From the NCBI RefSeq assembly GCF_000760935.2, contig NZ_CP049744.1:4185501-4249500 (forward strand): DNA of 64,000 bases, written 5' to 3'. Position 1 is the stretch's first letter. Every line of letters starts with the position of its first letter. The position numbers and the translations under genes are program-made. Below, one piece after another: positions 44,351 to 64,000 of the stretch. The stretch comes from Rhodococcoides fascians A25f. Lineage in GTDB: Bacteria; Actinomycetota; Actinomycetes; Mycobacteriales; Mycobacteriaceae. The notes below the pieces were generated by a model. The model saw nothing but the letters and a program-made list of their open reading frames with translations. It had not been told where the DNA came from and ran no database searches.

Positions 44351-44840
44351 GAGGGCACCGAGATCGGTTGTGGAACAGGGGCAGAACCTCCCGCGCGAGC
44401 AACGCAGAGGTGCATCCGGGATCAGGTGCACCTCGATCGATTGCGTGGAGAACGACGGCATCGGCAACATGTGCGGAATACACATCGACTATCAGCGACA
44501 CCAGACCTCGCGCGGTTCCGACGTAGCGCACGGTGCTACCGAACATTTCCTCACCGCGCAGACTCAGACGAGTCCGAGCCGACGGAGCGTCGTCGGCAAT
44601 CAGGACATCTATGTCGAGGGCCACGCTCAGAGAGGCCGGATCTCCGCCTGCGTCCGTCCACGAGCGGCGCACTCTTTCTCGTTCACGAATTCCGCCGCCG
44701 AGATCAGGTTGTCGCATCCGGTGGAACTTGTCGCGGCGCGCTTCTACGTCCTCAGCGAGTATCACCGACAGGCCCGGTCTACCCATCTCACCGTCGCCGA
44801 CACCGGCTTCCCGCCCAACCGGGCGCTGGTCGATCGTCAT
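44334..44840 (-). pseudogene. Luciferase-like flavin monooxygenase, internally deleted
   Basis: The 168-residue frame begins with an ATGA overlap to the SDR gene, like a real cistron, but only a fraction of an LLM protein is present. The C-terminal part RSWTDAGGDPASLSVALDID, GSTVRYVGTARGLVSLIVDV and VVLHAIDRG matches the end of the roughly 330-residue LLM fold. EMGRPGLSVILAEDVEARRD near the start matches a more N-terminal segment. About 150 residues are missing, so it is probably non-functional. Confidence 0.65.
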
Positions 44841-45694
44841 ACCGGCGGGGCTCCCGATGTTGTCGCAGTCAGAAGTGCACCTGCGTCGACCTTCAATTGC
44901 TGTCCCGTTACGAATCGGGCAGCGTCGGAGGCGAGGTAGAGAACTGCTTCGCTGATGTCTCTCGTCGAGATCGTCTTCACCGGGAGTTTGTGCGAGCTTC
45001 CGAACGCGGATTGAGCATCCTCGTGGGTCGGCGCGTCGAGATCGGGTCGAAAGAGCTTGTACATGGCATCGTTCTGCAACATCGCCGTGTCGATGTTGCC
45101 CGGATGAACGGCGTTGACCCGAATATTCAAGGGAGCCAGCTGAAGTGCCGTCTCATGGACGAACCGGGCGACGGCCCGCTTGGCGTGCCCGTACCCCGCC
45201 GCCCCAGGTCCCGCGGCAGGATTGTCCACCAGCCCGGTGAGCATCGATGCCATCGAGCCGATGCACACGATCGATGCACCCGATTCCAAGTACCCGAATG
45301 CGACTTCTACGGTGTTGATCACCCCGACGAGATCCACCGACAGCGTGTCGAAGTATCCGACAAGTGGGACATCGGCACCGATCGGGCAGATCGCCGCATT
45401 TGCCACCACGACATCGAGTCGGCCCATCTCGGCCACACCGAATTTCAGCGCCTCCGCGATGCTCGAGCGATCTCGAACATCGGCCACCCGAGTGACGATT
45501 CGACGACCCGTGTCCTGCACCAGCCGTGCTGTCTCGGCGAGGTCCGCCTCGGTCGCCATCGCGTACGTCGCGGTGTCGATCTGATCGCAGATATCGACCG
45601 CGATGATGTCGGCACCCTCCTCGGCCAGCCGCACCGCGTGCGAGCGCCCTTGACCACGAGCTGCCCCCGTGATGAAAACAACCTTGCCGTCCAT
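44837..45694 (-). CDS. Mycofactocin-coupled SDR family oxidoreductase
   Basis: This 285-residue SDR matches the mycofactocin-coupled family: MDGKVVFITGAARGQGRSHA, VDICDQIDTATYAMATEADL (the family insertion), VANAAICPIG, a Ser-Tyr-Lys triad in CIGSMAS and GYGHAKRAV, and RFVTGQQLKVDAG at the end. Members keep a tightly bound NAD and pass electrons to mycofactocin; the best-known substrates are alcohols such as carveol. A secondary ring alcohol is therefore plausible. It follows the ketosteroid-dehydrogenase-like gene by 82 bp with a small hairpin between. Confidence 0.88.
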   Translation of the reverse strand: MDGKVVFITGAARGQGRSHAVRLAEEGADIIAVDICDQIDTATYAMATEADLAETARLVQDTGRRIVTRVADVRDRSSIAEALKFGVAEMGRLDVVVANAAICPIGADVPLVGYFDTLSVDLVGVINTVEVAFGYLESGASIVCIGSMASMLTGLVDNPAAGPGAAGYGHAKRAVARFVHETALQLAPLNIRVNAVHPGNIDTAMLQNDAMYKLFRPDLDAPTHEDAQSAFGSSHKLPVKTISTRDISEAVLYLASDAARFVTGQQLKVDAGALLTATTSGAPPV

Positions 45695-45731
45695 ACGTCC
45701 GGTCACACACAACTCCACTTCGTATTTCGGA

Positions 45732-45757
45732 GCGGGCCACCCGAGAGGTGAGCCCGC
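45732..45757 (-). promoter_or_regulatory. Intercistronic hairpin between the KstD-like and SDR genes
   Basis: GCGGGC-CACC (45732-45741) pairs with GGTG-A-GCCCGC (45747-45757) with a single bulged base. It could be a weak terminator or an mRNA processing or stability element. Confidence 0.5.
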
Positions 45758-45776
45758 CCTGGTTCGGCCAGCTGGA

Positions 45777-47387
45777 TCACTGGTCGGCGTTGCGGCTGTT
45801 CTCCATGTCGAGAACCGCCAGATAGGAGAACGCCAGGGACGAGCCGATGGGGGTGCCGGCACCCGGGTACACGCTCCCGGACATCGCGGCCATAGTGTTG
45901 CCCGCAGCGTAGAGGCCCTTTATCGGCGACCCGTTCGTGGTCAGAACCCGAGCGCACTCGTCGGTCCGGAGTCCGCCCTTCGTTCCGATGTCGGAGAGCC
46001 GAATCGTGGCGGCATAGTAGGGAGCAGTATCGATCGCCCCGAGGAGCGGATTGGGAACATCCTGAGGCAGCGGAACGATGTAGTTCTGCGCAGGAAGAGC
46101 AGGGAAACCGACGACATACCGGAACATGTTGTCCCAGGGCGTCTCCCCGCGATGGAACCTGTCGTCGACACCGGATTCCGAGGCCGCGTTGAATTCCTTG
46201 ACGGTATTGCTGAGGTTCTCGAAAGGAACACCGATCATGTCGGCCAGTTCCTCGAGCGTATCGGCCTTGACCAGCGCGCCCGACTCGAACCATTCCGGGC
46301 GCACCGGCACGGCAGGATCACCGCCGAAGCTGTCCCTGTCGATCTGCTTCTGATCGAGAATCCATCGGACCGGCATGTGCGACACCCCGGTAGTTGCCTC
46401 TGCGTTGTATATAGCATGGCCGGATTGGTCGTACGGCTGCGTCTCGTTGGTGAAACGTTCGCCTGCTCCGTTCACCCAGATCCCGCCGCGTGTGCCGGTC
46501 TGGAAGACGGGTTGACCGTCCGGCTGAACGAGGCCGGGTACGAACCACGCTTCGTCCATCAAATCGATATCGGCACCGACCGCTATGCCGGCGGTCAACG
46601 CATCACCGGTATTGCTTTCGACTCCGTTGGACCACTCGCCGGTGAGGGGGACCCTGCCGTACTCGGTGCGCAACTGTGCGTTGTGTTCGAATCCGCCTGC
46701 GGCGAGCAGAACTCCGCGTTCCGCTCGATATGTCACCTCCGCACCGTCGCTGGTGGCCTTGAGGCCCACGACGCGGCCATCCTCGATAACGAGACTGCTC
46801 AGCGCCGTGTTCAGGCGGAGCACGCCGTGACCGGTGTCGAGGAATGCCAACAGCGCTCGGCCGATCAGTGCCCGCCCACCCGACAGGACCGGGCCTTCGT
46901 CGTCACCCCAACGTTCGTCCGGAATCGACTTGCGCAGGATGGCGAGGTTGTCGCCGAGCTCGGCGGCGGAAAGCGGTGAGGGAAAGATCGTGTTTCCTGC
47001 AGGTGAAAAGCCAGGCGCGGCAGCGAAGTACTCCGGAACCGGCTGGTGGAAGAACTGCCCGAACCGCTCATTCGTCTCCAGTTCGTCGATCAGCTCTCTT
47101 CCGGCTTTGAAATATGCATCCTGCAGTGGCTCGCGGGACGGGTCGTCGACCAAGGCGCGCAGATACTCGCGAGCGTTGTCTGTGCCGTCCTCGATGCCGG
47201 CCCGCGTCACGGGAGCGCTTCCGGGATACCACAATCCGGCACCGGAATAGGCGGTGGTACCGCCGACCTTGTCGGTCTTTTCGATGACGAGTGTGCGAAG
47301 ACCGCGAGACGCGGCGACGTAGGCACCGATCAGTCCGCCGCCTGAACCTACGACTATGACATCGAATGTCTCCACTTCAGTGGCCAT
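45777..47387 (-). CDS. FAD-dependent 3-ketosteroid-delta1-dehydrogenase-like protein
   Basis: This 536-residue FAD_binding_2 flavoprotein has DVIVVGSGGGLIGAYVAASR (dinucleotide fold), VIEKTDKVGGTTAYSGAGLW, GGRALIGRALLAFL, LLAAGGFEHNAQLRTEY and a C-terminal GLYAAGNTMAAMSGSVYPG with GAGTPIGSSLAFSY. KstD enzymes desaturate the ring of 3-ketosteroids next to the carbonyl; smaller relatives can desaturate cyclohexanones or cyclohexenones towards phenols. AGGAGG stands 6 nt before the ATG at 47387. The neighbouring mycofactocin-type SDR would supply the ketone. True steroid specificity is not provable from sequence. Confidence 0.88.
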   Translation of the reverse strand: MATEVETFDVIVVGSGGGLIGAYVAASRGLRTLVIEKTDKVGGTTAYSGAGLWYPGSAPVTRAGIEDGTDNAREYLRALVDDPSREPLQDAYFKAGRELIDELETNERFGQFFHQPVPEYFAAAPGFSPAGNTIFPSPLSAAELGDNLAILRKSIPDERWGDDEGPVLSGGRALIGRALLAFLDTGHGVLRLNTALSSLVIEDGRVVGLKATSDGAEVTYRAERGVLLAAGGFEHNAQLRTEYGRVPLTGEWSNGVESNTGDALTAGIAVGADIDLMDEAWFVPGLVQPDGQPVFQTGTRGGIWVNGAGERFTNETQPYDQSGHAIYNAEATTGVSHMPVRWILDQKQIDRDSFGGDPAVPVRPEWFESGALVKADTLEELADMIGVPFENLSNTVKEFNAASESGVDDRFHRGETPWDNMFRYVVGFPALPAQNYIVPLPQDVPNPLLGAIDTAPYYAATIRLSDIGTKGGLRTDECARVLTTNGSPIKGLYAAGNTMAAMSGSVYPGAGTPIGSSLAFSYLAVLDMENSRNADQ

Positions 47388-47453
47388 GATTTCCTCCTGA
47401 GATGAGTGTCGAACCATTGGTTCGACGGATGATGACGTGTGCGCTCGAACGGC

Positions 47454-47738
47454 TCAGAGAAACACGAAAAATCCTGACAGCACGAGCCATAGTGCAACGC
47501 AATATATTTCGAAGGCAGCGCGGAGCTCCCACGGAGCGTGACGCAGTTCCATGAAGTCCAAGCCGACCAGTCGAACTTTGATCGCGGCAATGGCGAGAAC
47601 GACGATTGCCGAGACCGTGCCGCCGTGGGAGTCCAGCGTCAGCAAAGGGCCCACGACGGCCGCGAGGACCAAGATGACCCACGTGACGACGATTCGGGCG
47701 GGAAGAAGCTGTTTCAGGTCGATCGAACTTGTTGTCAT
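47454..47738 (-). CDS. Cytochrome oxidase subunit IV-like (NorF/CyoD-type) small membrane protein
   Basis: This 94-residue protein has three hydrophobic helices (IVVTWVILVLAAVVGPLL, VSAIVVLAIAAIKVRLVGLD, AAFEIYCVALWLVLSGFFVF) and the FMELRHAPWELRAAFE loop common to prokaryotic COX4/NorF-like proteins. It lies 3 bp after the COX3-like gene, and the pair resembles NorE-NorF. No oxidase subunit I or II is present, so it would associate with an oxidase encoded elsewhere or support a membrane oxygenation system. Confidence 0.82.
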   Translation of the reverse strand: MTTSSIDLKQLLPARIVVTWVILVLAAVVGPLLTLDSHGGTVSAIVVLAIAAIKVRLVGLDFMELRHAPWELRAAFEIYCVALWLVLSGFFVFL

Positions 47739-47741
47739 GAG

Positions 47742-48350
47742 TCATACCGCCAGATAGACGAGAGGGAACAGGACCATCCAGAGAAGATCGACCAGGTGCC
47801 AGTAACACGAACCGCCCTCGAAGACGAGACGCTGTGTACCCGTGAGTTCGACTCGATGTCGCGCGCGAGTGAACATCACCCACAGTGCGACGAGACCTAT
47901 GACTACGTGAAACAGGTGCGTGCCGGTGAGAATGAAGAACCACATGTAATAGGGACCGACCTCCGGCCCGTGCCCGGCGCCGATCATGTGGATATATTCG
48001 GAAATCTTGAGCACCGTAAAAAACACGCCGCACGCAATCGCACCCAGATACAGCCTCGATGCCAAGCGATGAGCTCCGAGACGGAGGGCGTTCAGGGCCA
48101 CAACGACCAACAGTGAACTGACGAGCAAGATCATCGTGTTGGTCAGCCCTATGGCCAATCCCAGCGCCTCACGAGATGCTGTGAACTCCTCCGGTTCCTT
48201 GCTGCGCTCCATCAAGAAGGCGACGAAGAAGAAGCCGAAGACGATCATGTCACCGAGAAGAAAGACCCACAGACCGGGCTCGCCGGGAATCCGTCGTCCC
48301 TTCTCATGTGCCGTTTCTCGAGCCGTCGCGAGATTCGTATCGCTCGTCAC
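47742..48350 (-). CDS. Cytochrome c oxidase subunit III-like (NorE-type) protein
   Basis: This 202-residue, five-helix COX3-family protein carries GEPGLWVFLLGDMIVFGFFF at the N-terminus, LGLAIGLTNTMILLVSSLLV, TGTHLFHVVIGLVALWVMF and FEGGSCYWHLVDLLWMVLFP. The length is that of NorE-like short subunit III proteins. The GTG at 48350 gives the usual length; a GTG at 48449 is also in frame. It appears to head a minus-strand operon with the NorF-like, KstD-like and mycofactocin-type SDR genes. Its metabolic link to ring oxidation is unclear. Confidence 0.83.
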   Translation of the reverse strand: MTSDTNLATARETAHEKGRRIPGEPGLWVFLLGDMIVFGFFFVAFLMERSKEPEEFTASREALGLAIGLTNTMILLVSSLLVVVALNALRLGAHRLASRLYLGAIACGVFFTVLKISEYIHMIGAGHGPEVGPYYMWFFILTGTHLFHVVIGLVALWVMFTRARHRVELTGTQRLVFEGGSCYWHLVDLLWMVLFPLVYLAV

Positions 48351-48705
48351 GAGACCAACCAACTTGTGGAGATCGTCCCGCGGCGGTGTCTGAACATGAC
48401 GTTGAGTCCCCTTCGATCGTGGCTCGTCGGCGCTGATGATCCAAATCACGTTTCACGCACACGAGTGATGCACATCTCTTTGTTGCTCCGACCACAGTCT
48501 CACCGTGTGCACTACGGACGAGGCGGTCGAATCCCACTCACCGAGACGCAACCCAGATCCGATGCCGACGAGTACAGTCATTTTTAGACCGACTGTTCGA
48601 TTCTTGTCCGAAAGCGGTCGGTTGCGTCCATACTGATTCGGCATGGTGTTGTAACAAGTAATACATATCGAGATCATGAGCCATGCCGGCGCTAGGAGGT
48701 TGACG
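48351..48705. other. Divergent promoter region between the COX3-like and IclR genes
   Basis: 355 bp that must hold promoters for the minus-strand 48350-43019 run and the plus-strand 48706-54471 run. GACCGACTG (48590) and CGGTCGGT (48623) form a loose inverted pair, which could be an IclR site; support is weak. No gene is visible apart from the possible N-terminal extension of the COX3-like protein. Confidence 0.5.
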
Positions 48706-49587
48706 ATGTCCGATGCTCCATCAAGCATGGTCGAACGCGTGGTTCTGATTCTGGATGTCTTCGCCCGGTCATCGGGCACCCTGACACTCGGACAGATCAG
48801 TTCACGCAGCAGATTGCCTCGGTCGTCGGTACACCGAATCCTGCAACAATTGGTCACGGCGCGGTGGATCGACCGGCGGGACAACGAGTACACACTCGGT
48901 TTGCGTATGTTCGAGATCGGTAGTCAGGTCGAACAACGTACCCGCTTCAGCGAGATCTCTCGACCCCTTATGCAGGAACTCTCCACGGCAACCGGACACG
49001 TGGTGCACCTCGCGTTGCTCGACGAACACGATGTGGTCTACCTCGAGAAGGTTGGCGGCCCCTTCGGCGGCAGACTCCCCTCGCGCGTGGGCGGCAGGTT
49101 GCCGGCCCATTGCACCGGCGTAGGAAAAGTCCTACTGGCCTACTCCCCCGATCCGATAGTCGAGGAATACAAGAAGAGCGGCATGAGGCGTCAGACAAAC
49201 GCGAGCATCATGAGTGAGGAAGCACTGGAGTCTTCGATCCGTAGCATCCGAAACTTCGGATACTCCACGGAGCGGGGTGAAGCGGTTCCCGGTGTCGCGT
49301 GTGTCGGTGCCCCCATTTTCGAGTTCGGCAATGTGGTGGCCGCCATTTCGGCATGCGGACCCCAGCAAAGGCTGCGGGTCGACGAACTCAAGCATCGAAT
49401 CATGTGGACCGCAGCCGAAATCTCCCGCCGTCTCATGGCGTCGAGTTGCCCACCGAGCCGAACGGCCAATCAGCTGCCCTTTACGGCGCAGAACGCCACG
49501 GTCGTCGATTTCCAACAACCTGTCGGATGGCATCACACCACAGCTTCCGAAGGACCAACAAGACGCGAAAGGGTCGAGAAGTGCTGA
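48706..49587 (+). CDS. IclR family regulator of the meta-cleavage operon
   Basis: This 293-residue protein has an IclR winged helix (VVLILDVFARSSGTLTLGQI, LPRSSVHRILQQLVTARWID) and a full effector domain (GHVVHLALLDEHDVVYLEKV, PAHCTGVGKVLLAYSPDPIV, YSTERGEAVPGVACVGAPIF). A 45-residue C-terminal tail extends beyond the usual end. GGAGG stands before the ATG at 48706. It is the first gene of the plus-strand unit with hydratase, dioxygenase, hydrolase, hydroxylase and reductase, and is divergent from the COX3/KstD-like operon, so it can control both. Confidence 0.9.
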   Translation: MSDAPSSMVERVVLILDVFARSSGTLTLGQISSRSRLPRSSVHRILQQLVTARWIDRRDNEYTLGLRMFEIGSQVEQRTRFSEISRPLMQELSTATGHVVHLALLDEHDVVYLEKVGGPFGGRLPSRVGGRLPAHCTGVGKVLLAYSPDPIVEEYKKSGMRRQTNASIMSEEALESSIRSIRNFGYSTERGEAVPGVACVGAPIFEFGNVVAAISACGPQQRLRVDELKHRIMWTAAEISRRLMASSCPPSRTANQLPFTAQNATVVDFQQPVGWHHTTASEGPTRRERVEKC

Positions 49588-49618: not shown

Positions 49619-50419
49619 GTGAACGTGGCCCCCGGGGTAATCGACGCGGTCGCCGACCGCCTACAGAATGCCGCCACAGCAGGTATTGCCTGCAATCCGG
49701 TCATCGACCTGATCGGTACGAGCGACATCGATACCGCGTATGCGGTGCAGCAAACGCTCACCCGAAGACGGATCGCGTCGGGCGCTCGACTCATCGGGCG
49801 CAAGATCGGACTGACCTCGGTCGCAGTTCAAGCTCAGATCGGTGTCGACCGACCAGATTTCGGAGTGCTGTTCGACGACATGCGATTCTCCGACACCGAC
49901 CTGATTCCTTTCGGCAGGTTGCTGCAACCCAAGGCCGAGGCCGAGGTCGCGTTCGTACTCGGATCCGATATCGACGACGCGTCCTCACCCGACGCGGTAC
50001 GTGCTGCCGTCGAATTCGCCTATCCGGCACTGGAGATCGTCGATAGCCGAATCAAACAGTGGCAGATCGGTATCACCGATACCGTCGCCGACAATGCGTC
50101 TTCCGGAGTATTCGTCATTGGTGAAACCGGCTTCGGTCTCTCGGATGTGGAGCCTCGGGACGTCGTTATGACCATGAGGCGAAACGGCGAAGTCGTCTCT
50201 CGAGGCACCGGCAGAGATTGCCTTGGCGATCCCCTTGCCGCATTGGCGTGGCTGGCCACCACCGCTATCGATATCGGATCACCGCTTCGCGCAGGCGATA
50301 TCGTGCTTTCGGGTGCACTGGGGCCAATGGTCACAGTCCATCCCGGCGATGTGTTCGAGGCCGACATCGACCCACTCGGTTCCATCTCGGCGCGCTTCTC
50401 TTTGGCCGAGAACAGCTGA
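49619..50419 (+). CDS. 2-keto-4-pentenoate hydratase (2-hydroxypenta-2,4-dienoate hydratase)
   Basis: This 266-residue protein of the MhpD/HsaE/BphE type has ARLIGRKIGLTSVAVQAQIG, FGVLFDDMRFSDTD, the metal-ligand segment KAEAEVAFVLGSDI (Glu-x-Glu), ALEIVDSRIKQWQIGITDTV and DIVLSGALGPMVTVHPGD. It adds water to 2-hydroxypenta-2,4-dienoate to give 4-hydroxy-2-oxovalerate. The start is GTG at 49619, with another GTG at 49625. The matching aldolase and acetaldehyde dehydrogenase are not in the window. Confidence 0.9.
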   Translation: MNVAPGVIDAVADRLQNAATAGIACNPVIDLIGTSDIDTAYAVQQTLTRRRIASGARLIGRKIGLTSVAVQAQIGVDRPDFGVLFDDMRFSDTDLIPFGRLLQPKAEAEVAFVLGSDIDDASSPDAVRAAVEFAYPALEIVDSRIKQWQIGITDTVADNASSGVFVIGETGFGLSDVEPRDVVMTMRRNGEVVSRGTGRDCLGDPLAALAWLATTAIDIGSPLRAGDIVLSGALGPMVTVHPGDVFEADIDPLGSISARFSLAENS

Positions 50420-50552: not shown

Positions 50553-51554
50553 ATGACCATGTCCCACGATTACGACCCAGGTCCCCGAATTGCCCACGCG
50601 GGCAGCATCAATCTGGGAACCAAAAATCTCGAACGCTCGCTCTGGTTCTTCCGTGACCTTCTGGGGATGGAGGTCACCGCGCAAGCCGACGGTGTTGCAT
50701 ACCTTCGCGGATATCAGGAACTCACCCACCACTCGCTCGTGCTCACCCAGCAGACCGAATCGTTGGTGAACACCTACAGCTTCCGCGTCCAGCGCAAGCA
50801 GGACGTCGAGCTGTTCCAGAAACAGCTCGATCGCGAAGAGATCGAGTCGATCGAATTGGCCGCAGGCCACGAGACCGGTCGCGGCGAAGCGATCCGTTTT
50901 CTCCTGCCCGGCGGTGAGCACCCTATCGAGCTGTACTACGACATCGAGAAGCCACTTGCCGACGAATCGATCCGCTCGAAGCTGCCGAGCAACAGCTCAC
51001 GTCGGCGCGGATTCGGAGTTCGGCGACTCGATCACCTCAACGTTCAGTGCAGCCCAGGCACGGTCAACCAAGCAGAGGGCTGGCTGCAGGAATCGCTCGG
51101 CTTCAAGCGCCGCGAGTTCGTGATGATTCCCGACCATCCCACGACTGTGATGGCATCGTGGTTGTCGGTGACTCCGCAGGTGCACGACATCGCCATCGGC
51201 ATCAATCCGCACGACGAGAACGGCCAGTTCCACCACGTCGCGTTCAACATCGAGAACTTCGCCGACGTTCTCAGGATTGCCGACGAGGTCCGCGATCTGG
51301 ATATCGAATACGGTGCCGGGCCGGGCAAGCACGGCGTCGGTCAGGCGATGTACCTCTACCTTCACGATCCCGGTTCGGGCCATCGAGTCGAGCTGTACTC
51401 GGGCGGTTACTTGATCTTCGATCCCGATTTCGAAGCCATCGAATGGAAGCTTCCCGAAATTTCTTATGGTCAGACGTGGTATGGCGACCTCCTCGACGTG
51501 GGACCCCAGGGCACCTTCCTGACCACTACGCCGTCCGCAGGCCTCAAGCCGTAA
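50553..51554 (+). CDS. Type I extradiol (catechol 2,3-type) dioxygenase
   Basis: This 333-residue two-domain VOC protein has the metal ligands His161 (RRLDHLNVQ), His227 or His228 (QFHHVAFN) and Glu280 (HRVELYSGGY), the type I extradiol signature. Its N-terminal domain is the usual inactive repeat (AGSINLGTKNLERSLWFFRD). The C-terminal 30 residues (LPEISYGQTWYGDLLDVGP) are an extension seen in alkylcatechol-type enzymes. It would open a substituted catechol next to the hydroxyls. AAGGAG precedes the ATG. The hydrolase that follows accepts the product. Confidence 0.93.
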   Translation: MTMSHDYDPGPRIAHAGSINLGTKNLERSLWFFRDLLGMEVTAQADGVAYLRGYQELTHHSLVLTQQTESLVNTYSFRVQRKQDVELFQKQLDREEIESIELAAGHETGRGEAIRFLLPGGEHPIELYYDIEKPLADESIRSKLPSNSSRRRGFGVRRLDHLNVQCSPGTVNQAEGWLQESLGFKRREFVMIPDHPTTVMASWLSVTPQVHDIAIGINPHDENGQFHHVAFNIENFADVLRIADEVRDLDIEYGAGPGKHGVGQAMYLYLHDPGSGHRVELYSGGYLIFDPDFEAIEWKLPEISYGQTWYGDLLDVGPQGTFLTTTPSAGLKP

Positions 51555-51673: not shown

Positions 51674-52549
51674 ATGACGAGTCCAATCTCCTTCGAGTCC
51701 ACGCGAAAGACCGCGCAGGTCGAGGACCTCACGTTCGCCTATCACGAAGCGGGCACGGGTGAGCCACTCATCATGCTTCACGGGTCCGGTCCCGGTGTCA
51801 GCGCCTGGTCCAACTTCCGGGACAATCTGCCGTTCTTCGCCAACGACTTTCGCGTCATCATGCCGGATCTTCCGGGCTTCGGCGGTACCGAACTTCCCCC
51901 GCTCGACGAGGTGTACACCGTCGCCGCGGCCAAGTGGATCGCCCGCTTCATGGACCATCTCGGAATCGAGTCCGCCCGTTTCGTCGGCAATTCCATGGGT
52001 GGGGCGGTGTCGGCCGAACTTGCGGCCTTGTACCCCCATCGGGTGAGGAGAATGGCGCTGATGGGTTCGGGCGGTATGTCCGTCGGGATCTTTCAGGCAG
52101 AGCCGAGCGAAGGCTTTCTCCGCTTGTTCGAGTTTCTCGAGGATCCGACCCGCGACCGCATGATCGGGTGGATCAAGACCATGGTGTTCGACAAGAAGCT
52201 CATCACCGACGAGTTGGTAGACCAAAGAATGCAGAATGCGCTCGCCGATGGAGTACTCGGCCGCACCAAGGCCATCTTCGGCTCCATGTTCAACCCCAAG
52301 AACCAGGCGACGTACACCCCGCTGTGGACCAAAGCCGCGTCGATCACCACCGACACACTGCTGCTGTGGGGACGCGACGACCGCATGCTTCCGTACGACC
52401 AAGCGCATTTCGCCACCAGATGGCTCCCGGAAGTGGAACTGCACACGTTCGCACACTGCGGCCATTGGATTCAGGTCGAGCGCAAGTCCGACTTCGAGCG
52501 CGTCGTGCAGGAATTCCTGACCCGTGAAGAACCGACCCCAGCACAGTGA
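51674..52549 (+). CDS. Meta-cleavage product hydrolase (HsaD/BphD-like)
   Basis: This 291-residue alpha/beta hydrolase has IMLHGSGPGVSAWSNFRDNL (oxyanion loop of MCP hydrolases), MPDLPGFGGTELP, nucleophile Ser107 in VGNSMGGAVS, LLLWGRDDRMLPYDQAHF (acid) and FAHCGHWIQVERKSDF (base). It cleaves the C-C bond of the ring-opened vinylogous 1,5-diketone to 2-hydroxypenta-2,4-dienoate and an acid. The ATG at 51674 follows AGAGAGG. The released acid is a likely substrate for the FadD and beta-oxidation genes downstream. Confidence 0.92.
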   Translation: MTSPISFESTRKTAQVEDLTFAYHEAGTGEPLIMLHGSGPGVSAWSNFRDNLPFFANDFRVIMPDLPGFGGTELPPLDEVYTVAAAKWIARFMDHLGIESARFVGNSMGGAVSAELAALYPHRVRRMALMGSGGMSVGIFQAEPSEGFLRLFEFLEDPTRDRMIGWIKTMVFDKKLITDELVDQRMQNALADGVLGRTKAIFGSMFNPKNQATYTPLWTKAASITTDTLLLWGRDDRMLPYDQAHFATRWLPEVELHTFAHCGHWIQVERKSDFERVVQEFLTREEPTPAQ

Positions 52550-52719
52550 CGGTTCGTATCCAACAGACCCCACACACACTTCGCCACCTGTCAAAGCGAA
52601 CATCCCGCTCACCGGGATCGCAAGGGCGATAGTCGGTTACGGGGTACACAATCGAGTAAAGCCCCTCCGCATCCGTCGGAACGGGGATGTATCGGTATCG
52701 AGAAACAGAGGTAGTCGAC

Positions 52720-56112: not shown

Positions 56113-57273
56113 TCAGGACGGGTAGCGGTTTGCCAGATCCCGGCCGATGATTTCCTTCATGATTTCGGTGGTGCCACCGACGATGGTTTGGACACGCGCG
56201 TCTGCGTAAGCGCGCGATATGGGGTATTCGTCCATATAGCCGTATCCGCCGAACATCTGCAGACACCCGTCCGTGACGCGCTTCTGCAATTCGGTGGTCC
56301 ACCACTTGGCCTTCGCCCCCAAGGTGGCGTCGAACGTGCCGTCGTTGTATGCCAGGATGCTCTGCTGAAGAAAACTGCGGGTTATCTCGACCTCGGTTGT
56401 CATTTCGGCGAGCTTGAACCGAGTGTTCTGGAAGTCGACTATTCTCTGGCCGAATGCTTTTCGCTCGCTTGTGTACTTCAGCGTCCACTCCAATGCCGCT
56501 TCGGCTGCGACGAGAGCGCGCCATGCGATCGACAACCGCTCGAGCGGCAACTGGGCGGTCAGGTGATGGAATCCGCGGCCTTCCTCACCGACGAGATTCG
56601 ACAGCGGCACGCGCACATCGGAGAAAGCGATCTCGGCAGTATCCTGGGCGTGCAAACCGAGTTTGCGCAACTTCTGCCCCCGTGCGAAACCTGGGGTGTC
56701 GGTCGGAACCAGAATGAGCGAAAGTTGCGGCCTACCCTCTTTCTCTCCCGTCCGGGCCGCGGCCAGAACCACATCCGAGGAGAAGCCGCTGGTGATGAAC
56801 GTCTTCGCTCCGTTGATCACCCACTCATCACCATCGCGGACCGCTGTGGTCTTCATCCCGCGGAGATCGCTGCCCGCGGCAGGTTCGGACAGCGCAATCG
56901 ACGCGACGGTCGAACCGTCTGCCATACCGGGTAGCCACGTCTGCTTATGCTCGGTTGTGCCGAAGGTGGTCAGGTAGGACGCGACGATGTCATCGTTGAT
57001 GGAAAAGGCCGAAGCAAGTGCCGCGGCCCCCACTCGTGCGAGTTCCTCCTGCACGACACAGCGAAAGCGATAATCAGCTGCACCTCCACCGCCGAATTCT
57101 TCGGGTATCCGGATACCGAGAATGCCCTGAGCGCCAGCTGCCTTCCACACGATTCGTCCCGTACTTCGCTCCTCCTCCCAGCGATCGAGATTCGGGGTTA
57201 CTTCTCGGCTCACGAATTCGCGGACGGACGCACGAAAGGCCGAATGGTCGGCATCGTAAAAATTCTCTGGCAT
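56113..57273 (-). CDS. Acyl-CoA dehydrogenase
   Basis: This 386-residue acyl-CoA dehydrogenase has ILGIRIPEEFGGGGAADYRF, SIALSEPAAGSDLRGMKTTA, WVINGAKTFITSGFSSDVVL (FAD binding), RKAFGQRIVDFQNTRFKLAE and QMFGGYGYMDEYPISRAYAD with the likely catalytic Glu in DEYP, and ends with the TEIMKEIIGR motif. It oxidises an acyl-CoA to the 2-enoyl-CoA, passing electrons to ETF. The gap to the SDR is 25 bp and to the thiolase 33 bp. Confidence 0.92.
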   Translation of the reverse strand: MPENFYDADHSAFRASVREFVSREVTPNLDRWEEERSTGRIVWKAAGAQGILGIRIPEEFGGGGAADYRFRCVVQEELARVGAAALASAFSINDDIVASYLTTFGTTEHKQTWLPGMADGSTVASIALSEPAAGSDLRGMKTTAVRDGDEWVINGAKTFITSGFSSDVVLAAARTGEKEGRPQLSLILVPTDTPGFARGQKLRKLGLHAQDTAEIAFSDVRVPLSNLVGEEGRGFHHLTAQLPLERLSIAWRALVAAEAALEWTLKYTSERKAFGQRIVDFQNTRFKLAEMTTEVEITRSFLQQSILAYNDGTFDATLGAKAKWWTTELQKRVTDGCLQMFGGYGYMDEYPISRAYADARVQTIVGGTTEIMKEIIGRDLANRYPS

Positions 57274-57306: not shown

Positions 57307-58458
57307 TCAGTCGACGAGTTCGTAGATGGTTGCGTTCGCAGTACCGCCGCCTTCACAGATGGTCTGAAGCCCATATCGGAGCCCTCGATCGCGCATGTGG
57401 TTGATAAGGCGAGTGGTCAGAATGGCACCCGATGCCCCCAGCGGATGGCCGACCGAGATGGCACCGCCGAGCGGATTGACCCGCTCCGGGTCCGCGCCCA
57501 GTTCGATTTGCCAGGCGAGCGGTACCGGTGCAAAGGCTTCGTTGATCTCGATTGCTCCGATGTCGCCGATGGTCAACCCTGTGCGAGCGAGCACCCGTTG
57601 CGTCGCGGGTATGGGCGCGGTCAACATCATCACCGGATCGGCACCGACGACGGAGCCGGCCAGAATCCGGACGATCGGCGTCAACCCGAGCTGCCGCGCT
57701 TTCTCTGGTGTCGTGATCAGCACGCCCGCTGCGCCATCAGAGATCTGAGAGGCGTTGCCCGCGTGTATGACGCCGTCTTCGCGGAACGACGGCTTCAGCT
57801 TGGCCAACGTCTCCGGGGACGTGCCACGGCGCACTCCCTCGTCCACCGTCAATTTCGCGTCGAGCGTATCGACACCCACCAATTGAGAGTCGAATGCACC
57901 GCGGTCGATCGCTGCCGCAGTCAGTCGGTGCGAGCGGGATGCGTACTCGTCCAGTATGAGTCGAGTCAGACCCCACTTCTCGGCGATCATCTCGGCACCG
58001 GTCCCCTGATCGAGTCCGTCGACGCCGAAGCGGTCGAGTACCGTCTGACCGTAGGGGAACCCCGATGCACGGGTTGCGCCGAGCGGGACCCTGGACATCG
58101 ATTCGACTCCACCGGCGACTGCGATGTCGTAGGCGCCCGACATCACGGCATGCGCGGCCGACTCGATGGCTTGTTGTCCTGACCCGCACGCGCGGTTGAT
58201 AGTGGCCGCGGGTACCGATTCGGGCCACCCGGCAGCCAGGGTTGCGAAACGTCCGACATTGCTCGACTGGTCACCCAGTTGCGTGACACACCCCCACATC
58301 ACGTCGTCGATGGTTCCTGGATCTATTCCGCTGCGCTGCACCAATTCACGGAGGACGAGTGCCGAGAGATCTACGGGATGAATTCCGCTCAGCGATCCGT
58401 TTCGCTTCCCGATTGGCGTGCGTACTGCCTCGACGATCACTGCTTCTCGGACCTGCAA
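57307..58458 (-). CDS. Acetyl-CoA acyltransferase (thiolase)
   Basis: This 383-residue thiolase has the nucleophile in NRACGSGQQAIESAAHAVM, GGVESMSRVPLG, INEAFAPVPLAWQIEL, GGAISVGHPLGASGAILTTR and CEGGGTANATIYEL with the second Cys and His. TTG at 58458 is the proposed start because GGAG lies 7 nt upstream; a GTG at 58440 is also in frame. It heads the minus-strand unit thiolase-dehydrogenase-SDR-crotonase, divergent from the acyl-CoA dehydrogenase at 58583. Confidence 0.9.
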   Translation of the reverse strand: MQVREAVIVEAVRTPIGKRNGSLSGIHPVDLSALVLRELVQRSGIDPGTIDDVMWGCVTQLGDQSSNVGRFATLAAGWPESVPAATINRACGSGQQAIESAAHAVMSGAYDIAVAGGVESMSRVPLGATRASGFPYGQTVLDRFGVDGLDQGTGAEMIAEKWGLTRLILDEYASRSHRLTAAAIDRGAFDSQLVGVDTLDAKLTVDEGVRRGTSPETLAKLKPSFREDGVIHAGNASQISDGAAGVLITTPEKARQLGLTPIVRILAGSVVGADPVMMLTAPIPATQRVLARTGLTIGDIGAIEINEAFAPVPLAWQIELGADPERVNPLGGAISVGHPLGASGAILTTRLINHMRDRGLRYGLQTICEGGGTANATIYELVD

Positions 58459-58582
58459 GTGACTGCTCCGATCGATGTAGCTGAAGTAGCGAGAGATGAA
58501 AGAGTGGCATCGACAGCCACGATCGCTACTCAAAAGATAGATTACATGGTTAACTACGTCAAACACTGTTTAGGAGAGTTCC

Positions 58583-59635
58583 ATGGACTTCGCGCTGAGC
58601 GATGAACAAGACGCCCTCGCCGCAGCCGAACGCGCCTGGCTGACCAAGAACAACCCGATCACTTCCCGCCGGAGCACGATCGACGACGGTCCGGCGCGTC
58701 TGCGGTCCGAGGACCTCCGACATTTGCGCGACTCTGGCCTGGCAGGTCTGTTGACCGAGAACATGGGCGGCACGCACGTCGATCTCGCCGTCCTGGTGGA
58801 AGAGCACGGTCGCGCGGGAAGCGCGATTCCGCTCGCCGAATTATCCATTGCAGCAGGCCTTCTCGAGTTTCTCGACCACCCGATGAGGGAGAGCGCCGAA
58901 TCGGGAGACGAACTCGTTGTGCCGGTGGCGGCCGCGATCGACAACGCCACGATCACCGCGAGCATCGACGACGACACGCTGCGGCTGCAGGGCAGGAGCG
59001 CTCCGGTGAGCGGAGCGATCGACGTCGGCCACGTACTGATATTGGCGCAGTGCCGCGACGGAATCGAAGTTGCCGCGGTACTGCCGGTCGGTGCGGTCGA
59101 GGTGACTCCGCTCGACACACTCGATCTGACCAGGTCCTGGTCCGTGGTCGATATCGACGTAACTCTCGAAGTCGACCAATGGTACGGACTGCCCTCGGGT
59201 ACAACTGATTTCGTTCACGATCAGCTTGCTACCTACCGGGCATTCGACGCCCTCGGTGCCGCCGCACGCCTGGTCGAGGACAGCGTCGACTATACGAAGA
59301 GTCGAACGCAGTTCGGTAAGCCCATCGCGTCGTTCCAGGCCGTCAAACACCATTGCGCGAACATGGCGTTGTCCGTCGAAACAGCACGTGCGGCGCTGTG
59401 GGCTGCGGCGGTCGCCCTCGACGACAGATCACCCGAGCGCACAGCTGCGGTGTCTGCCGCTGCCGCCTACACAGGCGAAGGCACGAGCACCGTCGCTCAG
59501 ACAGCTCTTCAGGTACACGGCGGAATCGGCTTCACCTGGGAACACCACCTTCATCTGCTGATGCGCCGGATCAAGGTCGACGAGCTGCTCGATGGAACAG
59601 TATCGTTCCATCGACGCCGGCTCGTTCAGGTCTGA
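58583..59635 (+). CDS. Acyl-CoA dehydrogenase, short FadE subunit type
   Basis: This 350-residue protein has DFALSDEQDALAAAERAWLT, a shortened N-terminal domain, SRTQFGKPIASFQAVKHHCA and ALQVHGGIGFTWEHHLHLLM with the Glu of WEHH. The short length and divergent middle (no clear substrate loop) match the smaller partners of heterotetrameric FadE enzymes of the steroid type. A partner could be the dehydrogenase at 56113 or the one at 63279. TAGGAGAG precedes the ATG. It is the only plus-strand gene of this block. Confidence 0.87.
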   Translation: MDFALSDEQDALAAAERAWLTKNNPITSRRSTIDDGPARLRSEDLRHLRDSGLAGLLTENMGGTHVDLAVLVEEHGRAGSAIPLAELSIAAGLLEFLDHPMRESAESGDELVVPVAAAIDNATITASIDDDTLRLQGRSAPVSGAIDVGHVLILAQCRDGIEVAAVLPVGAVEVTPLDTLDLTRSWSVVDIDVTLEVDQWYGLPSGTTDFVHDQLATYRAFDALGAAARLVEDSVDYTKSRTQFGKPIASFQAVKHHCANMALSVETARAALWAAAVALDDRSPERTAAVSAAAAYTGEGTSTVAQTALQVHGGIGFTWEHHLHLLMRRIKVDELLDGTVSFHRRRLVQV

Positions 59636-59715: not shown

Positions 59716-60525
59716 CTAGCGAGCCTGCCAAACGGGCTGCCGCTTCTCCGCGAACGCTCGCGGACCTTCCTTCGAGTCCTCGGTCGTGCGCAGTAGGTCC
59801 CACTCGGTCGCGGACAGCGCCCACTTGTGATCCTCATCGGAACGGGTGCCGTCGACAATGCCGTACGCGATTCGTTTGCTGGCCTGCACCGACAGGGGTG
59901 CATTCACGGCAATCCTCTGAGCGAGCTCGACCGCGGCCTCGACCGTGCGTCCCTCCTCGACGACTTGGTTGATCAATCCGCATTCGAGTGCTCGCTCGGC
60001 GCTGATCGGGTCGCCGGTGAAGATCATCTCCATGGCCAGTCTCTGCGGAATCTGGGCTGGAAGTCTGAACACCCCGCCGGCACCGGCAAGCAATCCGCGC
60101 TTGACCTCGGGTAGGCCGAACGTTGCGTTGGTGGATGCCACGATCAAGTCGGCGGACAGTGCCAACTCCGTGCCGCCTCCGAGGGCCGAGCCGTTGACCG
60201 CCGCTATCGTCGGCTTCTGAACGAGATGCTTGACGAATCCGGCAAAACCCCATTCCGCGTGACCTGGGGCGTACGTGCTTTCGCCTCGCGCAATCGCTTT
60301 CAGGTCCGCGCCGGCACAGAACGACTTGTCACCGGCGCCGGAGACGACGATGACGCGGACGTCTCGATCGGCTTCCGCCTCCTCGAGGGCTGCCCCTACT
60401 GCGGCACTGACGGCACTGTTCACGGCGTTACGTGCGTCCGGACGGTTGATGGAAATGATCATGACGTTTCCGGAGCGCTCCACGAGGGCAGCTGGGCGCT
60501 CCGGGGTCGTGGTTTCTTCGGTCAT
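59716..60525 (-). CDS. Enoyl-CoA hydratase (crotonase family)
   Basis: This 269-residue crotonase has INRPDARNAVNSAVSAAVG, SGAGDKSFCAGADLKAIARG, VNGSALGGGTELALSADLIV and FGLPEVKRGLLAGAGGVFRL. It is similar to the crotonase at 54547 and probably paralogous. GAGAGG lies before the ATG at 60525, which overlaps the thiolase stop (ATGA). It ends the minus-strand unit dehydrogenase-FadD-thiolase-crotonase. Confidence 0.91.
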   Translation of the reverse strand: MTEETTTPERPAALVERSGNVMIISINRPDARNAVNSAVSAAVGAALEEAEADRDVRVIVVSGAGDKSFCAGADLKAIARGESTYAPGHAEWGFAGFVKHLVQKPTIAAVNGSALGGGTELALSADLIVASTNATFGLPEVKRGLLAGAGGVFRLPAQIPQRLAMEMIFTGDPISAERALECGLINQVVEEGRTVEAAVELAQRIAVNAPLSVQASKRIAYGIVDGTRSDEDHKWALSATEWDLLRTTEDSKEGPRAFAEKRQPVWQAR

Positions 60526-61688
60526 GGTGTTACCTCTCGGATCGGGTCGATCAGTTCGAGGATCGTGGCATTGGCTTGGCCGCCGCCCTCGCACATCGTC
60601 TGAAGGCCGTACCGAATGTTGTTGCGACGCATGTGGTGAATCATGTCGGTCAGGATCCGGGCACCCGAACCGCCGAGGGGATGTCCCAGAGCTATAGCGC
60701 CGCCGTTCGGATTCAGCTTCTTCGACTCGACGCCGATTTCCTTCTGCCATGCCAGCGGCACCGATGCGAAGGCTTCGTTCACCTCGAAGACCCCGATGTC
60801 GTCCACCGTCAGTCCCGATTTGTCGAGCGCCTTCGCCGTCGCGGGGATCGGCGCGGTGAGCATGATGACGGGATCGGCGGCCGCGACGACCGCCGTGTGG
60901 ATCGCGGCGATAGGCGTCAACCCATGTGCGCGAGCAGCGTCTTCACTCATGATCAGCAACGCCGCGCACCCGTCCGAGATCTGCGAGGCATTGCCTGCAT
61001 GGATGACGCCGTCTTCTTTGAAGACGGTCTTCAGGGACGCCAGCTTCTCGACAGTGGTTCCGCGACGGATACCTTCGTCTCTTCTGACGACGGTGCCGGC
61101 CGGGGTAGTGATCGGAACGATCTGCTCGTCGAACCACCCTGCGTCCTGCGCCGCGGCCGCTCGCTCGTGAGACCGTGCGGAGAATGCGTCGAGGTCGGTG
61201 CGGCTCAAGTTCCACTTCTCGGCGATCATTTCGGCGCCCACACCCTGATTGGGTGCCACCTCGTATCGCGTGAGGAAGCCGGGACCGTACGGACTGCCGC
61301 CGACTTTGCCTGCGGAACCCATCGCAACCCGAGACATCGATTCGACACCGCCTGCGACCACTACCTCGTAGTGACCCGCTTCTACACTGGCGACGGCGAA
61401 GTTCAGTGCCTGTTGCGAGGATCCGCATTGGCGGTCGATCGTGACACCGGGAACCGAATCCGGCCACCCCGCCGACAAGACTGCATTTCTCGCGATGTCG
61501 TTGGCCTGATCACCGAGCTGCTGAACACATCCCCAAATTACATCGTCGACGATCACCGGATCGATCCCTGCGCGTTCGACGAGCGCGTTGAGCACTGCCG
61601 CAGACAGATCGGCTGGGTGGACATCTGCGAGGCCACCGTTCCTCTTACCGACGGGGCTTCTGACGGCTCCGACAATTACTGCGGACAT
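60522..61688 (-). CDS. Acetyl-CoA acyltransferase (thiolase)
   Basis: This 388-residue thiolase is closely similar to the one at 57307: DRQCGSSQQALNFAVASVEA (nucleophile Cys), GGVESMSRVAMGSAG, VNEAFASVPLAWQKEIGVES, GGAIALGHPLGGSGARILTD and CEGGGQANATILEL. It removes acetyl-CoA or propionyl-CoA in the last step of a beta-oxidation round. The ATG follows AAGGAGCAAGT. The presence of two thiolase/crotonase pairs suggests two rounds or two different side chains. Confidence 0.92.
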   Translation of the reverse strand: MSAVIVGAVRSPVGKRNGGLADVHPADLSAAVLNALVERAGIDPVIVDDVIWGCVQQLGDQANDIARNAVLSAGWPDSVPGVTIDRQCGSSQQALNFAVASVEAGHYEVVVAGGVESMSRVAMGSAGKVGGSPYGPGFLTRYEVAPNQGVGAEMIAEKWNLSRTDLDAFSARSHERAAAAQDAGWFDEQIVPITTPAGTVVRRDEGIRRGTTVEKLASLKTVFKEDGVIHAGNASQISDGCAALLIMSEDAARAHGLTPIAAIHTAVVAAADPVIMLTAPIPATAKALDKSGLTVDDIGVFEVNEAFASVPLAWQKEIGVESKKLNPNGGAIALGHPLGGSGARILTDMIHHMRRNNIRYGLQTMCEGGGQANATILELIDPIREVTP

Positions 61689-61717
61689 ACTTGCTCCTTC
61701 GAAAGTTGGTTCTTCGG

Positions 61718-63241
61718 TCAGGCGTTCTGAACGCGAGCGGATTCGAGGTCCGCGACGAGCTCGAGTACGCGGCGTCGGTCGACTTTGAGCGAGGCCCCAC
61801 GCGGCAAGGACGCGACAGTGTGAATATCGACCGGAACCTCGTAACCGGTCAGCCGGTGACGGACGAATTCGCGGAGTTCGCTCTCGCTGACGTCGGGAGC
61901 CCCCGCCACCAACTCCACCACCGCAATCGGAACTTGACCCAGCCGCTCGTCATCCCTGCCGAACACCGTGGCATCGTGCACCGACGGATGCGCGCGCAGG
62001 GCATTGCACACCGTTTCGGGCTGAATCTTGAAGCCGCCGCGCACGATGGCATCATCGGCACGGCCGTCGATGTACAGGAAGCCGTCCGTGTCCAGGTGAG
62101 CGAGGTCGCTGGTCCGAAGCCAGCTGCCGGCCCCGGCACCGACCTGAGGTGCCGATACTTCGAGTCGGCCGGTCTCCCCCACCGCCAGGACCGAACCGTC
62201 GGTAGCCACGGTGCGCATGGCCACTCCGGGGAACGGCTTTCCGACACTCCCCCGTTTCGCCTTCCACCATTGTTCGATCAGCGGCCGTGTCCATCCTGCG
62301 ACGGCACCTCCGAACTCGGTGGCTCCGTAGACGATCATGACGGGGATGTCGAACTTCTCGGTGAACTCGTCGGCCAGATCAGGGCTGACGAACGTTGTTC
62401 CCGCCGTTACGGCACGCAGGCTCGTGAGCTTCTCTTTCGGGACGTCGGCACCGAGAACTGCGCGCATGGCCGCCGGGGGAAGACTGGCTATCGCCAGTCG
62501 ATGCTCGAATACGGCATCGACCCAGCCCTCGACTGTGAATCGGGGTAGCAGCACGAACGGGCGCGCCTCGGTCAACGACTGAATAACGCTCCACATGCCG
62601 CCGATATGCACGATAGCGAGCGTCACGAGCGCGGCCTTACCGCTGAGCGGTTCGCGGATCTTGCCCGCCGCCCCGGTGTGCCGGTGAACTGCCGACATTG
62701 CCGACTCGAGCTGGCGCCATGTCAGCGGAATTCGTTTGGGCGTTCCGGTCGTCCCCGAGGTGAACATCTCCACGGCGACTGGATCTTCGGGCTGCAGCGG
62801 ATGCGAGTCGAGGACGGTGGACGGCCCGGGGATGCGTACGACTTCTGCACCGTCCACCGCGAATCCGACGACACCAGCAGCGGAGACACCCGCAGAGAAT
62901 TCTGCGCTGTCCCAGTCGCTTTGCGGTGCCAACACCACGGGTGGCCGGGACGCCACGACGTCTGCCAGGATCCGGACCATGGGTTGCATCGGATTCAACG
63001 TCACCACTGTCCGTCCGCCGCCCAGAATCGCGATCAGAGCAGCGACCGTCTCGACGCGGTTTGACACCACCACCCCGATTCGGGAGCCTTCTCCGCATCC
63101 GAGGTCGGTGAGGGCGGCGTCGATGCGCTCGGCCGTCTCTCGCACCTGTCCCCACGTGTACCAGCGCTTCTCCTGCTGGATCATTCGGGCGTCGCCGGGG
63201 GCCGACCACAGCTGTTTCAACGCTTGTCTGATACTCGTCAT
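61718..63241 (-). CDS. Acyl-CoA synthetase (AMP-binding, FadD type)
   Basis: This 507-residue ANL-family enzyme has VEMFTSGTTGTPKRIPLTW (P-loop), VIVYGATEFGGAVAGWTRP, WLRTSDLAHLDTDGFLYIDG and RADDAIVRGGFKIQPETV (hinge) and the catalytic Lys near LPRGASLKVDRRRV. It adenylates a carboxylic acid and transfers it to CoA. The N-terminal third is compact, as in enzymes for cyclic or aromatic acids rather than long-chain fatty acids. Gaps to the thiolase (29 bp) and the dehydrogenase (37 bp) indicate one operon. Confidence 0.9.
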   Translation of the reverse strand: MTSIRQALKQLWSAPGDARMIQQEKRWYTWGQVRETAERIDAALTDLGCGEGSRIGVVVSNRVETVAALIAILGGGRTVVTLNPMQPMVRILADVVASRPPVVLAPQSDWDSAEFSAGVSAAGVVGFAVDGAEVVRIPGPSTVLDSHPLQPEDPVAVEMFTSGTTGTPKRIPLTWRQLESAMSAVHRHTGAAGKIREPLSGKAALVTLAIVHIGGMWSVIQSLTEARPFVLLPRFTVEGWVDAVFEHRLAIASLPPAAMRAVLGADVPKEKLTSLRAVTAGTTFVSPDLADEFTEKFDIPVMIVYGATEFGGAVAGWTRPLIEQWWKAKRGSVGKPFPGVAMRTVATDGSVLAVGETGRLEVSAPQVGAGAGSWLRTSDLAHLDTDGFLYIDGRADDAIVRGGFKIQPETVCNALRAHPSVHDATVFGRDDERLGQVPIAVVELVAGAPDVSESELREFVRHRLTGYEVPVDIHTVASLPRGASLKVDRRRVLELVADLESARVQNA

Positions 63242-63278
63242 GAATTTGCGCCCTCGCTCGGATGGTCGATCAGGTCAA

Positions 63279-64000
63279 CTAGCGTGGCATTCCGAGGCCA
63301 CGCTCGGCGATGATGTTCCGCATGATCTCCGAGCTCCCCCCAGCAATCGTGAACGCACGCGCGTACAGGAATTCGTCCTGCCATCGTCCAGAATCGAACA
63401 CATTGTTGTCACCCTCGACGAGAATGCCTGCCTCGCCACTCAATTCGAGCGCAAACCTCTGCACCTCGACTCCGATCTCACTGAAGAACAGCTTGGCCAT
63501 CGGTGCGTCGTACGCTCGCTCCGACTTGCGCGACCACCGACTGATGTTGGCGTAGACCAACGCGGACAGAGCGGAAATCGACGCATCCAACTGGCCGAGT
63601 CGGTCCTGCACATACCCGTCCTCGATCGCAGGTCGCCCGTTCCGCTCGACGCGACGCGCCAGATCCTTCAGCGCTTCGACGCTCTGCCGCAGTCGAACAG
63701 CGTTCGCTGCCACACCTGAGCGTTCATGCGACAAGCTCGAATTGGCAACGGTCCAGCCCTGATTCAATTGTCCGACCAGAGCGTCGGGCGTCAGAACCAC
63801 ATCGTCGAGGAATACCTCGTTGAAGTCGGACGTACCTGTCATTTCGCGCAGCGGTCGGATGTCGACACCAGGAAGCGACATGTCCACGATGAACGCACTG
63901 ATGCCCTTGTGTTTGGGCGCATCGGGATCGGTGCGCGCAAGCATGTACCCGTAGTCGGACCAATGCCCGTTGGTCGTCCACACCTTCTGCCCGGTGACCC
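63279..64000 (-). CDS. Acyl-CoA dehydrogenase, partial (continues beyond the window)
   Basis: The C-terminal 239 residues of an acyl-CoA dehydrogenase are visible: VTGQKVWTTNGHWSDYGYML, HKGISAFIVDMSLPGVDIRP, REMTGTSDFNEVFLDDVVLT and TIAGGSSEIMRNIIAERGLG at the end. The N-terminal domain lies past position 64000. It is the first known gene of the minus-strand unit feeding FadD, thiolase and crotonase. The stretch GEAGILVEGDNNVFDSGRW replaces the usual GGxGYxxE(Y/F) segment, so the base position is unusual. Confidence 0.88.
   Translation of the reverse strand, partial: VTGQKVWTTNGHWSDYGYMLARTDPDAPKHKGISAFIVDMSLPGVDIRPLREMTGTSDFNEVFLDDVVLTPDALVGQLNQGWTVANSSLSHERSGVAANAVRLRQSVEALKDLARRVERNGRPAIEDGYVQDRLGQLDASISALSALVYANISRWSRKSERAYDAPMAKLFFSEIGVEVQRFALELSGEAGILVEGDNNVFDSGRWQDEFLYARAFTIAGGSSEIMRNIIAERGLGMPR

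Follow-up and report, generated by a model that had tools for sequence, protein, structure and literature searches.

A conserved island of predicted ring-aromatisation and meta-cleavage genes, distinct from the cholesterol cluster, in Rhodococcoides fascians A25f

Steroid breakdown is the best-known setting for KstD-type ring aromatisation with subsequent meta-cleavage, and a locus of Rhodococcoides fascians A25f raises the question of whether the same logic can serve another substrate. The window analysed here is a 64-kb stretch at positions 4185501-4249500 of a 5.7-Mb contig, in a genome of 5.9 Mb and four contigs. Genes were called by a codon-usage script and identified by profile searches. 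Coordinates are those of the window, and values above 64,000 lie past its edge (coordinates in the adjoining locus, L006, equal the window coordinate minus 63800). A first-pass annotation had placed a candidate system for aromatising and meta-cleaving an alicyclic ring, outside the known steroid cluster, at 44837-64000. Every gene type that it named was recovered by profile search in the same place, with FadD, three acyl-coenzyme A (CoA) dehydrogenases, two crotonases, one short-chain dehydrogenase/reductase (SDR) and two thiolases counted in the window. Its borders proved too narrow at both ends: the island spans about 38 kb, from ~43,019 to ~80,846, and extends past the 64-kb edge. It takes in a conserved gene, orf43 (43019-43762), that lay outside those borders, and a COX3/COX4-like pair (47454-48350) that had gone unmentioned. 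The island is genuine, conserved, larger than first described and distinct from the cholesterol cluster, and in it the familiar course of ring aromatisation and meta-cleavage would take a variant form.

Independence from the steroid cluster, as claimed in the first-pass annotation, is borne out across the whole genome. KshA (PF19298) has no match, HsaC yields one partial match of 38 bits outside the island (cut-off 450), and no protein exceeds the HsaA cut-off, the best being the island gene at 344 of 450 bits; therefore, the locus is not the cholesterol cluster. The case that had been named as fatal to the proposal, namely that the set is the ordinary cholesterol cluster of the species, is thus answered by the lack of the tested steroid markers. 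The earlier remark that neither KshA nor a KstR site was visible also stands, since KshA has no match genome-wide and KstR-type operators gave 0 matches in the window with 0.34 expected by chance. A whole-genome tblastn search with the KstD-like gene returned nothing else above 34 bits. Canonical HsaA exceeds its cut-off in 201 of 251 genomes of the family and in 8 of the 21 other same-genus genomes of the draw, so its lack is not rare in the genus. The seven other genomes with an orthologue of the KstD-like gene also hold canonical HsaA, and the island is therefore an addition there.

Compared with the 9,10-seco steroid pathway (KstD, KshAB, HsaABCD, HsaEFG), the system would, by homology, run its reactions in the same order: desaturation of the ring, then ortho-hydroxylation through a two-component flavin enzyme, extradiol opening and hydrolysis of a C-C bond, before the hydratase, aldolase and acylating aldehyde dehydrogenase. 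It differs in the missing or weak markers given above and in carrying a dioxygenase of the catechol 2,3-dioxygenase (C23O) type, two mycofactocin SDRs, a DitZ-like oxygenase and COX3/COX4-like genes. A divergent pathway for steroids or steroid fragments, for example a steroid already opened by other bacteria such that KshA would be unneeded, could draw on the conserved KstD1 catalytic residues, the HsaA-, HsaB- and HsaD-like enzymes, a CYP125-type chain among the better cytochrome P450 matches and a fused ChsH2/thiolase-type protein. Steroid-like gene clusters of unknown function have also been reported in Rhodococcus, according to the available portion of that report (PMC4810484). We nevertheless regard such a pathway as improbable, given the marker results, the canonical HsaA held besides by the seven other genomes and the window free of KstR-type sites. 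On the example of this island, KstD- and HsaA-like genes alone are an unsafe basis for predicting steroid degradation. A second HsaA-like paralogue lies elsewhere in the source genome (G000:C1:5290326-5291465; 256 bits, cut-off 450).

Judged by sequence, the ring enzymes are related to the curated steroid families without belonging to them. The KstD-like protein scored 477, 444 and 429 bits against three related KstD-type models with cut-offs of 675, 789 and 788, and the HsaD-like hydrolase also stays below its cut-off (294 of 400 bits). Among the SDR and the ring enzymes, the mycofactocin SDR alone exceeds the cut-off of its own family. The named proteins nearest to the KstD-like one come from Rhodococcus (85% and 79% identity). 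Tyr120, Tyr319, Tyr507 and Gly511 of the KstD-like protein align with the catalytic residues of KstD1, and these four positions are invariant in 17 aligned sequences. In the C23O-type dioxygenase, which scores just 20 bits against the HsaC model, the His, His and Glu positions that presumably bind the metal in extradiol enzymes are aligned. The HsaD-like hydrolase shows Ser, Asp and His residues suited to a hydrolase, in what we assume to be their usual roles. These positions lend support to the ring logic of the first-pass annotation, in which the order of the steps and the individual activities remain predicted. The presence of an HsaD-type hydrolase suggests that ring opening yields a ketone and, hence, that the substrate of ring cleavage is a 3-substituted catechol.

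Conservation of gene order shows that linkage of the island genes exceeds chance. Williamsia (G119) preserves the order of 25 of the 27 query genes, which run from the HsaD-like gene to the P450, with identities of 60-90%; the first ferredoxin and the reductase were the two queries without a match. A rearranged core recurs in six Gordonia genomes (G141, G152, G162, G220, G243 and G250), comprising P450, 6PGDH-like protein, aldehyde dehydrogenase, SDR, oxygenase, MaoC, SDR, crotonase, HsaB, HsaA and HsaD, together with COX3, COX4, the KstD-like gene, orf43 and the C23O-type gene; in G243 it is split over two contigs. In Williamsia, ~31 kb separates the HsaD-to-P450 block from orf43, the SDR, the KstD-like gene and the COX pair. 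This separation, and the finding that relatives of the oxygenase (E<=1e-100) occur in 42 of 251 genomes of the family versus the 8 with a KstD-like orthologue, would suit two or more separate pathways lying side by side, with the KstD-like/membrane, meta-cleavage and P450/oxygenase blocks serving different substrates. Such an arrangement is nonetheless very improbable, as the six Gordonia genomes hold members of all three blocks together in another gene order. Williamsia carries a second KstD-like copy (56% identity; G119:C3:492603-494165) ~18 kb from the first, with another SDR of mycofactocin type nearby.

A tree of 81 KstD proteins places the island protein in a clade of 15 with support of 100/99, apart from 60 others. 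The tree has four long-branch rows, and the joins of two of these, one on the island's side, may be false according to a program warning. Nine of the 15 clade rows have at least two of five linked genes, with the island row counted by definition; in Williamsia the linked genes lie farther off, and one further row (L009) is a contig of 6.3 kb. Four Streptomyces loci in the clade carry genes resembling the hydratase, HsaD and the oxygenase. Two rows outside the clade also have at least two of the five linked genes.

Past position 64,000, the island continues with a crotonase, a MaoC-like protein, a second FadD, a small soluble protein and a CaiB-type CoA-transferase, followed by a fused ChsH2-OB/thiolase protein, an amidohydrolase-type protein (71995-73179) and a GntR regulator. 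A second mycofactocin SDR (TIGR03971, 341 bits, cut-off 300) and an aldehyde dehydrogenase come next. Two ferredoxin genes, the second one small, then flank a gene for a 6PGDH-like protein, and the island closes with a reductase and a P450, the latter gene ending at 80846; both ferredoxins were assigned by eye from their cysteines. The small soluble protein, of 106 amino acids (68273-68593; L006:4473-4793), has no confident family and is shared by Williamsia and all six Gordonia genomes (46-60% identity).

Taken together, it seems on balance probable that these genes form one catabolic island of ~38 kb acting on a saturated (poly)cyclic substrate, with a terpenoid or related alicyclic as the likeliest. 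We infer the substrate class, the order of the steps and every activity as follows. The P450, the mycofactocin SDRs and the aldehyde dehydrogenase would yield a ring ketone and a carboxylate, the latter being activated by the CoA ligases or the CoA-transferase. Hydroxylation, possibly of the CoA ester, would fall to the DitZ/PtmU3-like oxygenase. The KstD-like enzyme would then desaturate the ring ketone to a phenol, which the HsaAB-like pair would convert to a catechol and the C23O-type enzyme would open. The HsaD-like hydrolase would split the ring-opened product into a 2-hydroxydienoate and an acid. The dienoate would pass to the hydratase and then to an aldolase and acetaldehyde dehydrogenase encoded elsewhere in the genome, and the acyl-CoA genes would finish the released acid.

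The wider genome can supply what this route draws on. Both mycofactocin SDRs exceed the TIGR03971 cut-off of 300, at 326 and 341 bits, and mycofactocin genes, whose presence the first-pass annotation had asked to be checked, are indeed there: two mftC genes, at G000:C1:4333741 and G000:C1:3931929, both far above the cut-off of 265 (643 and 640 bits), the first having MftB and MftD adjoining. Genes for a 4-hydroxy-2-oxovalerate aldolase and an acetylating acetaldehyde dehydrogenase, scoring 544 and 460 bits against cut-offs of 286 and 282, form a pair ~75 kb past the window and ~8 kb from the mftC gene with MftB and MftD. By homology, therefore, the dienoate can be finished and mycofactocin made.

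Clues to the substrate come mainly from two oxygenases beyond the window edge. The protein at 71995-73179 is closest to DitZ (239 bits), an entry titled 'Manganese-substituted DitZ from Rhodococcus Rhodochrous', and then to PtmU3 (130 bits), which we assume to act on a diterpenoid CoA ester; the 'dit' in DitZ presumably stands for diterpenoid. Its D-x-H, H-F-G, S-E-G-G and D-Y-P-H stretches line up by eye and would supply the ligands. The Gordonia orthologue is 34% identical to DitZ, a value taken from a low-confidence model. The gene product is a predicted oxygenase and a candidate member of the amidohydrolase-related dinuclear oxygenases, a group that includes DitZ, PtmU3, AibH2 and SfbO. 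PtmU3 and AibH2 are described as dinuclear oxygenases of this superfamily in the available portions of their reports (PMC10811679, PMC10401708). The P450 scores best against CYP101-type chains (top 215 bits; CYP101D1 213, CYP101J2 211), with P450cam at 188 and P450cin at 185 bits. The mycofactocin SDR subfamily of the island SDRs includes carveol dehydrogenase. Taken together, the DitZ/PtmU3-like oxygenase, the CYP101-like P450 and the SDR subfamily make a cyclic terpenoid, with moderate confidence, a better candidate than either a steroid or a simple alkylcyclohexane. The terpenoid named as a possibility in the first-pass annotation thus gains some support from these two genes, while the substrate itself, probably a cyclic compound of plant type, stays a prediction.

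Several observations weigh against this interpretation. In the 80 kb read, Williamsia has no hydratase match, and its C23O-type match is just 24% identical. The Gordonia blocks lack a hydratase match and a close copy of the SDR at 44837, and the four Streptomyces loci of the KstD-like clade have no HsaA-like or C23O-type gene within their flanks. The ring enzymes score below the cut-off of every named family, and therefore no substrate is deducible from them. The name DitZ serves as a label only. A CYP125-type chain, a steroid side-chain hydroxylase, reaches 201 bits with the P450, slightly below the CYP101 top of 215.

The substrate might instead be a simple alicyclic, such as an alkylcyclohexanol, a cyclohexane-alkanoate or a naphthenic acid, converted to an alkylphenol and then meta-cleaved, with the P450 acting on the side chain only. 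A dioxygenase of C23O rather than HsaC type and the many acyl-CoA genes would fit, as would the weak resemblance to 4-oxocyclohexanecarboxylate dehydrogenases (240 bits). The island also resembles the aromatising 4-oxocyclohexanecarboxylate pathway (ChcB/ChcC) in that an SDR would oxidise a ring alcohol and a KstD-family flavoprotein would desaturate the ring. However, the scores fall far below the cut-offs of the ChcC1 and ChcC2 models (240 of 1000 and 218 of 900 bits), and the island ring, unlike that of ChcB/ChcC, would be opened after ortho-hydroxylation by the HsaAB-like pair. Furthermore, a DitZ/PtmU3-like oxygenase and a second CoA gene set seem beyond the needs of a monocyclic acid. 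We consider this alternative unlikely, yet the most credible of those weighed.

Two further pathways bear comparison with the island. The dit pathway has an IclR-type regulator, as does the island. A scan confined to island genes showed no Rieske dioxygenase and hence no counterpart of DitA. As far as the accessible parts of its reports go, the dit resin-acid pathway of Pseudomonas (PMC13063091, PMC10710418) shares with the island a P450, CoA genes, a ring-cleavage dioxygenase and possibly a diterpenoid substrate, but it uses the ring-hydroxylating dioxygenase DitA. The Aph 4-alkylphenol pathway of Rhodococcus (PMC6710988) likewise has a two-component phenol hydroxylase, an extradiol dioxygenase, lower meta-cleavage genes and an IclR-type regulator. 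In contrast to the island, it comprises aphABCDEFGHIQRS with AraC-type regulators, and the available portion of that source lists no KstD, P450 or mycofactocin SDR. A conserved island of this logic, linked to mycofactocin and a DitZ-like oxygenase in a genome lacking the steroid markers sought, would reveal how actinobacteria degrade alicyclic natural products other than steroids. A 2025 study of a Rhodococcus that transforms terpenoids reports no high-identity match to the resin-acid enzymes already known and leaves the genes involved open (PMC12294881); the island offers candidates for that question.

Table 1. Island genes inside the 64-kb window, with their supporting matches.
Feature	Coordinates	Strand	Evidence
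orf43, 247-aa membrane-type protein	43019..43762	-	no Pfam match; conserved with KstD-like gene
Mycofactocin-coupled SDR, would oxidise a ring or side-chain alcohol	44837..45706	-	TIGR03971, 326 bits, cut-off 300
KstD-like flavoprotein, proposed ring-ketone desaturase	45777..47387	-	419 bits to solved KstD1 chains
COX4-like small membrane protein	47454..47738	-	PF03626, 40 bits, cut-off 28.9
COX3-like membrane protein	47742..48350	-	PF00510, 65 bits, cut-off 23.8
IclR-type regulator	48676..49587	+	start uncertain; profile match from residue 13
2-hydroxy-2,4-dienoate hydratase-like	49619..50419	+	NF008461, 303 bits, cut-off 350
Extradiol dioxygenase, C23O type	50553..51554	+	TIGR03211, 242 bits, cut-off 320
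HsaD/BphD-like C-C hydrolase	51674..52549	+	NF045632, 294 bits, cut-off 400; 211 bits to solved HsaD/BphD chains
HsaA-like flavin-dependent hydroxylase, oxygenase subunit	52687..53904	+	NF045629, 344 bits, cut-off 450; 465 bits to 2or0
HsaB-like flavin reductase	53941..54471	+	NF045630, 158 bits, cut-off 230
Crotonase 1	54547..55323	-	NF006100, 338 bits, cut-off 282
SDR, FabG-like	55320..56087	-	profile search; 81-85% identity in Williamsia and six Gordonia genomes
Acyl-CoA dehydrogenase 1	56113..57273	-	profile search; 83% identity in Williamsia
Thiolase 1	57307..58458	-	TIGR01930, 422 bits, cut-off 241
Acyl-CoA dehydrogenase 2, weakly IpdE2-like	58583..59635	+	NF050027, 102 bits, cut-off 450
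Crotonase 2	59716..60525	-	NF006100, 295 bits, cut-off 282 (longer open reading frame)
Thiolase 2	60522..61688	-	TIGR01930, 452 bits, cut-off 241
FadD-type acyl-CoA ligase	61718..63241	-	NF004837, 233 bits, cut-off 476
Acyl-CoA dehydrogenase 3	63279..64000	-	cut by window edge; real end 64466

Additionally, the island contains a membrane component. The orf43 protein has six hydrophobic stretches, and its model is helical, with eight helices and a pLDDT of 92.7; it has no Pfam family and no PDB fold match at E<=0.001, and some of its database relatives carry the name DUF4386. Of 251 genomes of the family, 8 carry an orf43 orthologue (at least 64% identity), and exactly the same 8 have a KstD-like orthologue (at least 63%). 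The chance of this co-occurrence is ~3e-15 assuming independent genomes, which these are not, six being of one genus. In the flanks of the KstD-like clade, orf43 is found in 10 of 14 loci and COX3 in 6 of 14. Distant relatives of orf43 (28-40%) adjoin a COX3-like gene in all 12 loci examined (L178-L189), one each from 12 of the 33 genomes that hold distant relatives only. A COX4-like gene was found by tblastn in 10 of these loci, the other two having an unmatched small open reading frame there, which agrees with two COX4_pro matches among 70 neighbours. Gene neighbourhood thus predicts that orf43 and the COX3-like and COX4-like genes are a reusable membrane gene triad. We tentatively propose, as a rather doubtful idea, that an undescribed three-protein module serves the KstD-like desaturase or its neighbours and is reused elsewhere in actinobacteria. 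Electron transfer, for instance to the respiratory chain, or uptake of a hydrophobic substrate are guesses at its role. Relatives of the three genes also recur in actinobacterial loci without this island.

The island regulators are of the IclR type and GntR. Palindromes at 58544-58559, in the divergent gap between a thiolase and an acyl-CoA dehydrogenase, and in the gap 47388-47453 between the KstD-like and COX4-like genes are possible operators. Inverted repeats at 54481-54514 and 59649-59682 lie at convergent gene ends and are terminator-like. In the rest of the window, at 10661-36000, genes for PrpF, an RraA-like protein, two DUF3500 proteins, a GntP-type permease, a CoA-transferase and HMGL-like proteins look like organic-acid catabolism.

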